Source: Kiritimatiellia bacterium (lineage in GTDB: Bacteria; Verrucomicrobiota; Kiritimatiellia; RFP12; DVOR01). Taken from it: a stretch of DNA of 17,024 nucleotides. The first letter of the stretch is position 1; each line of letters begins with the position of its first letter. The notes beneath the pieces are model-generated. The model was not told the DNA's origin. It saw only the letters and a program-made list of their open reading frames with translations, and searched no databases. Positions 2,294-3,002 of the stretch are shown here, piece after piece. The position numbers were made by a program, and so were the translations under genes. Where the stretch lies: NCBI GenBank assembly GCA_017548245.1, contig JAFYMU010000106.1, forward strand, positions 1 to 17,024, written 5' to 3'.

Positions 2294-2314
2294 GTTGCTC
2301 GTTCCTAGTTCGGT
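2294..2314 (+). repeat. GTTNNNN heptad array, short upstream block
   Basis: Three consecutive 7-nt units, GTTGCTC, GTTCCTA and GTTCGGT. They are separated from the main array by 17 nt (2315-2331), which shifts the 7-nt phase by 3. Confidence 0.6.
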
Positions 2315-2331
2315 CGCTCCGCTCCCTTGTA

Positions 2332-2429
2332 GTTCCGAGTTCAAGGTTAGCTGTTGAAGGTTGAATGTTAGCGGTTTGCTGTTCGCTGTTCTAGGTTCAG
2401 GGTTCTAGGTTCTGAGCTTGCTGTCGCCC
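2332..2429 (+). repeat. GTTNNNN heptad array (12 exact units plus 2 decayed)
   Basis: Twelve consecutive units start with GTT at exact 7-nt steps from 2332 to 2409. The tetramers after GTT are CCGA, CAAG, AGCT, GAAG, GAAT, AGCG, TGCT, CGCT, CTAG, CAGG, CTAG and CTGA. Two decayed units follow (GCTTGCT, GTCGCCC). The phase is exact while four of seven positions vary, so this is not an ordinary slippage microsatellite. No protein is supported here. A shorter array of the same kind lies at 2968-3002 on the opposite strand. Confidence 0.85.
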
Positions 2430-2540: not shown

Positions 2541-2816
2541 ATGAGTACGCTTGTTCAAAAACTTTCAAAACGGTTGTTTTGGGATGTTGATCCTGAAACA
2601 ATTGATGATGTTGTACATTGTCGTTATATCATTCAACGTGTGTTGGAGCGTGGTTCAATTGAGGAAATTCGCGAAACGGTGGCCTTTTACACCCTCGAAC
2701 GGATGATTGCCGAAGCGCAACAGATTCGTTCGCTTGATCCTGTTACCCTCGCTTTCGCGGCCTGTCTTGGAAATGTTAAAGAGGAGTCCTTTAAATGTTA
2801 TTCCTCAATACAGTAG
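2541..2816 (+). CDS. DUF6922-type small protein, probable antitoxin of an AbiEii-like pair
   Basis: A 91-aa protein. The core (LFWDVDPETIDD, then RYIIQRVLERGSIEEI, then RSLDPVTLAFAA) matches the DUF6922 pattern. Such genes commonly stand directly before AbiEii-type nucleotidyltransferase toxins and are taken to be their antitoxins. I recognised this by pattern, not by search. The ATG at 2541 starts the conserved domain; an upstream in-frame TTG at 2508 would add an unrelated N-terminus. The gene overlaps the start of the truncated partner by 22 nt, the usual arrangement for a coupled toxin-antitoxin operon. It looks intact although its partner is not. It is moderately AT-rich compared with the core genes. 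Confidence 0.75.
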   Translation: MSTLVQKLSKRLFWDVDPETIDDVVHCRYIIQRVLERGSIEEIRETVAFYTLERMIAEAQQIRSLDPVTLAFAACLGNVKEESFKCYSSIQ

Positions 2817-2986
2817 CTCCTGAAACATATTGTCTACTGAAACAAATTCAAGCGCTTCCTGAATTTGCAGAGGCGCGGTCAATCTGTCTCGGACGGAGTG
2901 AGCTGCGCCTTCCTTCGCGTCTTTGCGGTAAAACCACACTGGCAGTCCTGCGCCGCAGTCGTCACACTTTGACCCCAGAACCTTGA
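2795..2986 (+). pseudogene. Truncated AbiEii-type nucleotidyltransferase toxin remnant
   Basis: The frame opens with MLFLNTVAPETYCLLKQIQ and then ALPEF, a typical start for AbiEii/AbiGii nucleotidyltransferases. In intact members this is followed within a few residues by a LVGGTALAL-type active-site segment, with total length of about 200-300 aa. Here the homology stops after about 26 codons, near 2870. The rest of the 63-codon frame is encoded by a dispersed repeat (from 2894) and by the antisense of the heptad array (the last residues, LTPEP). No GG(T/S)...DxD catalytic motif remains. GAGGAG (2781-2786), 8 nt before the ATG, still provides a ribosome-binding site inside the antitoxin gene. 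The 3' part of the toxin was lost by deletion or repeat insertion. Confidence 0.7.
2894..2958 (+). repeat. Dispersed repeat family B, copy 1
   Basis: About 65 bp (core CTTCGCGTCTTTGCGGTAAA) that recurs in inverted orientation at the far end of the window, 16960-17024, with roughly six mismatches. The left limit is uncertain because the other copy is cut by the window edge. It directly follows the break in the toxin gene. Confidence 0.8.
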
Positions 2987-3002
2987 ACTCAGAACGTTGA
3001 AC
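2968..3002 (-). repeat. GTTNNNN heptad array, opposite orientation
   Basis: Read on the minus strand from 3002, four exact units (GTTCAAC, GTTCTGA, GTTCAAG, GTTCTGG) are followed by a decayed GGTCAAA. On the plus strand AAC recurs at 2979, 2986, 2993 and 3000. Two of the units (GTTCTGA, GTTCAAG) also occur in the array at 2332-2429. The two arrays face each other around the DUF6922/toxin remnant. Confidence 0.8.

Follow-up and report, generated by a model that had tools for sequence, protein, structure and literature searches.

How can a tandem array retain one trinucleotide in an exact 7-nt phase while the other positions of its units change? The question is raised by an intergenic array in the window, i.e., the whole 17,024-nt stretch of Kiritimatiellia DNA, from a gut bacterium, that was analysed. 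The genome holding it (G000; 1.39 Mb in 243 contigs, 75% complete) was compared with its relatives, in a set of 59 genomes; a RecA comparison placed two Kiritimatiellae MAGs and two records of uncultured bacteria nearest among named relatives (67% identity). The features of the locus are as follows:

2294..2314, + strand: upstream group of three GTT heptads (sequence and flank comparison)
2332..2415, + strand: main array of 12 GTTNNNN units (sequence and unit statistics)
2416..2429, + strand: two decayed heptads, GCTTGCT (2416) and GTCGCCC (2423) (sequence)
2541..2816, + strand: DUF6922 ORF between the two arrays (Pfam PF21956, E 4.6e-18)
2795..2878, + strand: initial 28 codons of an ORF, truncated at the start of a dispersed module (translations read by eye)
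2975..3002, - strand: second array (four GTT heptads), in the opposite orientation to the main one

The array in the window and its counterparts

The main block consists of 12 consecutive GTT units at exact 7-nt steps (starts 2332, 2339 ... 2409) followed by two decayed units, just as the first-pass annotation had described it. The three upstream GTTs (2294, 2301, 2308), which it had counted to the same array, keep the 7-nt spacing among themselves but do not fall in the 7-nt frame of the main block (2332-2308 = 24 nt). The array is intergenic (flanking ORFs 1738-2217 and 2508-2816) and does not lie within 23S rRNA; in the window Rfam found a tRNA only, and Tandem Repeats Finder reported mere fragments of the array. 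Phase and core are indeed kept while the remaining positions vary: there are 11 different units among the 12, and all 26 deviations from the column consensus fall in the 48 cells outside GTT, none in the 36 GTT cells. If deviations are spread evenly, log10 P for the GTT constancy is about -8.1, before multiplication by 7 for frame, a value that is optimistic because GTT was the reason for choosing this array. That the other four positions vary freely was too strong a claim, as the 210 GTT units tabulated from G000 arrays (some counted twice where arrays overlap) draw on 63 of the 256 tetramers, and four tetramers account for 75 of these units.

A 17-nt arm of the second array (2979-2995) is 94% complementary to 2332-2348. 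In the genus, the 16 genomes besides G000 have no match to the DUF6922 protein encoded between the two arrays, but family f3 has counterparts of 75-79% identity; sequence comparison suggests its horizontal transfer. The truncated ORF at 2795..2878 resembles a longer ORF that follows DUF6922 in three relatives (L319, L324, L325), and the dispersed module that ends it is also present on contigs C13, C147, and C228. DUF6922 was considered as habitual cargo of such array pairs and rejected, 7 of 12 relatives being scorable, with scores of at most 11 and a right boundary that was often guessed. Elsewhere in the window, inspection by eye showed a 40-nt element, with the inverted ends TAATGGAGA ... 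TCTCCATTA, that occurs three times just upstream of an AAA/DUF4143 ATPase gene (111-150, 249-288, and 323-362), one copy having a changed base.

The possibility that the array is unique, raised in the first-pass annotation as an objection, fails because the pattern recurs in G000 and in relatives: runs of four GTTNNNN units were found on 26/243 G000 contigs, many of them close to contig ends, and runs of six GTT units in 38 of the 59 genomes, G000 included. Overlapping matches to the four-heptad pattern in G000 number 42+50, vs 10+21 for the reversed pattern. The left flank of the window array, including 2294..2314, is common to arrays on C13, C31, and C116; therefore, array and flank have been dispersed together. 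Upstream of tRNA-Tyr/rodA, no GTT array of at least four units was found in G004 and G016, and G010 has a period-9 array there; nor was such a GTT array found at seven rodA loci of relatives. The units vary from genome to genome (GTTCTCY in G006, GTTAGCT in G004, GTTGGGC and GTTCAGG in G022).

Periodicity was also sampled in stretches without N chosen regardless of arrays (180 kb of G006 and 157 kb of G051), where 16 and 10 period-7 regions were found, respectively, vs 1.0 expected in each. Period-8 regions numbered 31 in G006 and 0 in G051, and periods 10 and 11 gave 6 and 1 regions in G006 and 0 and 0 in G051. High values were likewise obtained for periods 6, 9, and 12 in G006 and for periods 9 and 12 in G051; these are tentatively put down to codons. 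An evenly spaced G000 sample (118 kb without N) contained one period-7 region, not of the GTT type. By eye, hairpins were seen before many GTTYTCY arrays of G006 (L172-L178, L199-L208), with stems that change on both sides between copies (GCCCC/GGGGC, GCGCG/CGCGC). Intergenic period-8 arrays (CCAARCYT, ATCAGCYA) occur in the G006 loci L199-L208, and period-9 ones, again by eye, in G006 (TATAGGACN) and G010 (TCTGTGTGT, L171).

Inverted arrays around S23/IVP genes and their insertion

The PF05635 family (23S_rRNA_IVP/S23, a four-helix bundle) is present in 49 of the 59 genomes, in 43 of them over the cut-off. The window has no PF05635 match, and both G000 matches are on other contigs (C233 and C77). 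On C233 an inverted pair of GTT arrays encloses the gene, whose product matches the solved structures 2gsc (E 6.1e-20) and 2rld (E 5.2e-6). Flanks were compared by an arm score, in which the left flank is matched to the reverse complement of the right flank, and loci with a score of at least 15 (our own cut) are called armed. In the first set (60 loci, 9 of them dropped for short flanks) 31/51 PF05635 loci were armed; the controls reached 15 in 0/36 recA/rodA loci and 7/401 mismatched pairs, and the direct orientation did so in 7/51 loci. With one locus per genome taken, 21 of the 27 loci with flanks among the first 30 were armed. After the addition of 22 loci, four of which (from G022) had been picked after arrays were seen on their contigs, 51 of 73 PF05635 loci with usable flanks were armed, mostly by period-7 arrays, and 22 had no arms (47/69 armed with those four excluded; L261, which has an N in a flank, is counted among the 51). 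Random placements reached 15 in 6/1441 cases.

The best lag among the 51 armed loci was 7 in 30 left and 31 right arms, and 8 in 11 and 11; L239, L279, and L308 are armed without a clear short period. In L229, L266, and L336 (57 vs 24) the direct match was stronger than the inverted one. An analysis of flanks from the ORF ends, which took 70 of the 82 loci, gave 44/66 armed, with a median distance of 36.5 nt both upstream of the start and downstream of the stop; the loci are not independent, these 44 representing 13 protein clusters. S23/IVP genes in G009 and G007 are also flanked by period-8 arrays of the GGAAGTTT type. A general scan for inverted array pairs, in which rows from N-filled stretches are spurious, returned pairs enclosing other genes or none. 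Selection of the arms for RNA stems by G-U wobble was tried as an explanation and rejected (81 mismatches in sense vs 117 in antisense; 11 loci for, 25 against, 15 ties).

Outside Kiritimatiellae, 5/16 loci reach the score of 15 (Desulfobacterales, Geobacter twice, Syntrophaceae, and Bdellovibrio, the last without short-period arms) and 11/16 have no arms. Of the PF05635 genes examined, most of those in Kiritimatiellae lie between inverted arrays, as do 10/16 on plasmids (cyanobacteria, Gemmatirosa, Azospirillum), the other 6/16 having no arms; these 16 come from 44 plasmid records. Fourteen of the plasmid loci adjoin annotated protein genes, the remaining two regions being without annotation. 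No S23/IVP match was found in phage records. Three plasmid S23/IVP genes (L333, L336, L345) lie inside cyanobacterial CRISPR clusters, twice in the order cas6-IVP-cas4 and once as cas10/Cmr2-IVP-Cmr3.

Cassettes insert, since some relatives have one and others have none at the matching site, and their arms change by a whole 7-nt unit. Occupied and empty versions of four plasmid sites were compared, the empty ones in relatives without the PF05635 gene, and differ by cassette-sized insertions. At one of them, 3 nt separate an integrase gene from the one next to it in three relatives; in two Calothrix brevissima plasmids a cassette with GGGTGTA-type arms lies between the two. The TraM site has two occupied copies (region 89.6% identical) whose right arms differ by exactly one GTTCCCT unit; in Nostoc sp. 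ATCC 53789 this site carries arms, with an inverted score of 19, and no PF05635 annotation, its three frames being filled with stops. At the nrd site the junction was read by eye, the empty sequence being badly aligned by the program. The compared sites showed no clear target-site duplication, and some have extra or changed bases beside the arms. At L237 and L234 the same S23/IVP gene occupies the same place in two related species (G042 and G053), with downstream arrays that differ in length and unit content.

Unit dialects, cores, and competing explanations

The unit type follows the protein lineage. When two cassettes are said to share a dialect if at least 30% of their arm 6-mers are in common, sharing is found in 19/85 cross-genome pairs at protein identity of at least 50% and in 3/843 below it, and in 1/5 and 0/13 same-genome pairs, respectively. 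Moreover, a genome that contains arrays of a given dialect nearly always has a cassette of the same dialect (whole-genome counts include arms and overlapping matches). Matches to (GTTYTCY)4 number 136 in G003, 13 in G005, 246 in G006, and 54 in G009, all with IVP arms of that type, then 4 in G001, which has no PF05635 match, and 0 in 12 other genomes. The GTGAATC dialect has 5 matches each in G005 and G015, both with such arms, 2 in G009, 1 in G006, and 0 in 13; AATTAYG has 7 in G000 and 4 in G010, both with such arms (all four G010 matches lie within arms), 1 in G002, and 0 in 14. Arrays of six GTT units are present in 37/49 IVP-positive vs 1/10 IVP-negative genomes (Fisher P 0.0002) and, within the genus, in 9/10 vs 1/7 (P 0.004), relatedness being ignored in both tests.

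We consider it probable that degenerate heptad (sometimes octad) arrays, that of the window included, are inverted ends of small insertable PF05635 cassettes and of their commoner gene-less relatives. The IVP protein, or a partner of it, would recognise the ends. Slippage by 7 nt would lengthen and shorten the arrays, transitions would supply most of their diversity, and a shared core would provide periodic microhomology, through which arrays would join in register and so keep their phase. As the window array has an inverted partner at 2975-3002 but no IVP gene between the two, we read it as a gene-less, chimeric relative, which would descend from an IVP cassette and hold several unit types in register. 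The two PF05635 genes of G000 have arms of other types, and none with the dialect of the window array was seen there. Two units known from the G004 IVP arm (GTTAGCT, GTTTGCT) and one from a Geobacter arm (GTTCAAG) recur in the window array, possibly by chance. A broader and more tentative view, which we hold as possible rather than probable, is that S23/IVP proteins belong to a cross-phylum class of tiny mobile elements with fast-evolving heptad arrays as inverted ends, whose IVP lineages may spread gene-less arrays of their own dialect in trans; some cyanobacterial heptad repeats would be such ends, and the ribosomal IVS one specialised member.

Alternatively, ordinary intergenic heptad repeats could slip and decay alone, PF05635 being accessory genes in repeat-rich DNA and captured by it. 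Whole-unit changes and transitions are compatible with slippage and mutation, array pairs enclose other genes too, and GTTYTCY arrays exist in G001 without a PF05635 match. Most arrays are gene-less, 17 stretches of G006 containing 44 arrays, vs three PF05635 matches in the whole G006 genome (longest-ORF gene calling in this GC-rich genome overlapped 32 of the 44). Among long simple repeats, moreover, heptads are the commonest class in most genomes covered by a 2007 survey, as described in PMC4679880. This explanation is nevertheless rather unlikely, in view of the inverted rather than direct arrangement, the rarity of high scores among random placements (6/1441), the cassette-sized insertions at plasmid sites, and the tie of dialect to protein lineage, with different dialects within one genome. 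The templated mechanism offered in the first-pass annotation is not required, since two near-identical cassettes differ by one whole heptad, arrays of near-identical units are found in relatives, and 57/87 two-letter variable columns in arms are transitions; the GTT constancy of the window array is at best partly explained.

The main reading of that annotation, an array selected for GTT every 7 bp for protein binding, bending, or nicking, appears to us the least probable: GTT is constant in 36/36 cells of the window array and AAC/GTT is the invariant core in 24 of 64 period-7 arms, but other cores occupy the same place (GAA in 30), and PF05635 arms also use GTGAATC, AATTATG, AGGCAAT, and GAGCTTG, so that selection for GTT was rejected as a general rule and GTT as a general signal. 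By protein cluster the AAC/GTT core is found in 4/10 vs 2.0 expected, period 8 occurs too, and the seven rodA loci of relatives have no such array. It is also very unlikely that arrays are copied by a Y1/RAYT transposase or by a reverse transcriptase, considered DGR-like since PF05635 resembles the DGR protein Avd according to the accessible text of PMC10053308. Hairpins before many arrays would suit such retro- or REP-type mobilisation, but among the 17 genomes of the genus the reverse transcriptase family PF00078 was found in none, G000 (75% complete) among them, and Y1_Tnp in two, once over the cut-off, with 0 in G000; arrays are abundant in G000, G003, and G006 all the same. A gene of either kind may have been missed because the assemblies are 50-95% complete.

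Relation to known systems

Cyanobacterial STRR are heptanucleotide repeats. Like STRR/LSSR, the window array consists of tandem intergenic 7-nt units; unlike them, its units are not identical (11 different of 12). Arrays of the heptamers TAACTGA (PMC4679880) and GGGNATC (PMC4692102) have been described, and in the accessible parts of these papers they share with STRR and the present arrays an intergenic tandem arrangement with partly variable positions, and no gene family or inverted end of a cassette is connected with them. By our derivation, TAACTGA reversed and rotated gives GTTATCA.

REP/REPIN elements are gene-less dispersed repeats that match the flanks of one RAYT-encoding gene in the same genome. 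The present arrays are similar in that gene-less repeats match the flanks of one encoding gene; however, a Y1 transposase is over the cut-off in 1/17 genomes of the genus, and PF05635 has no known catalysis. The core of integron attC sites is GTTRRRY, and attC was rejected, as GAAT alone among the 30 commonest G000 tetramers fits RRRY. DGR are approached through the resemblance in fold between PF05635 and Avd (accessible parts of PMC10053308), while PF00078 has no match in the 17 genomes of the genus.

The closest comparison is with the 23S rRNA IVS. In Coxiella it contains an S23p ORF and has terminal inverted repeats that form a 28-bp stem, and the accessible parts of PMC4990558 describe it as a selfish element and call the origin and function of S23/IVP unclear after more than 25 years. 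The protein family and terminal inverted repeats are common to both systems, whereas the present cassettes lie outside rRNA, between ordinary genes, end in periodic degenerate heptad arrays, and have many gene-less copies. The window shares with the IVS terminal inverted repeats, but neither the S23/IVP gene nor the location in 23S rRNA. In the open literature (PMC) we found no paper linking S23/IVP to heptad arrays, and no description of such arrays as mirrored ends of S23/IVP cassettes in several phyla. This link ties together two unexplained things, the heptad repeats scattered through bacterial genomes and the S23/IVP of rRNA intervening sequences, and makes both the repeats and the function of S23/IVP testable.
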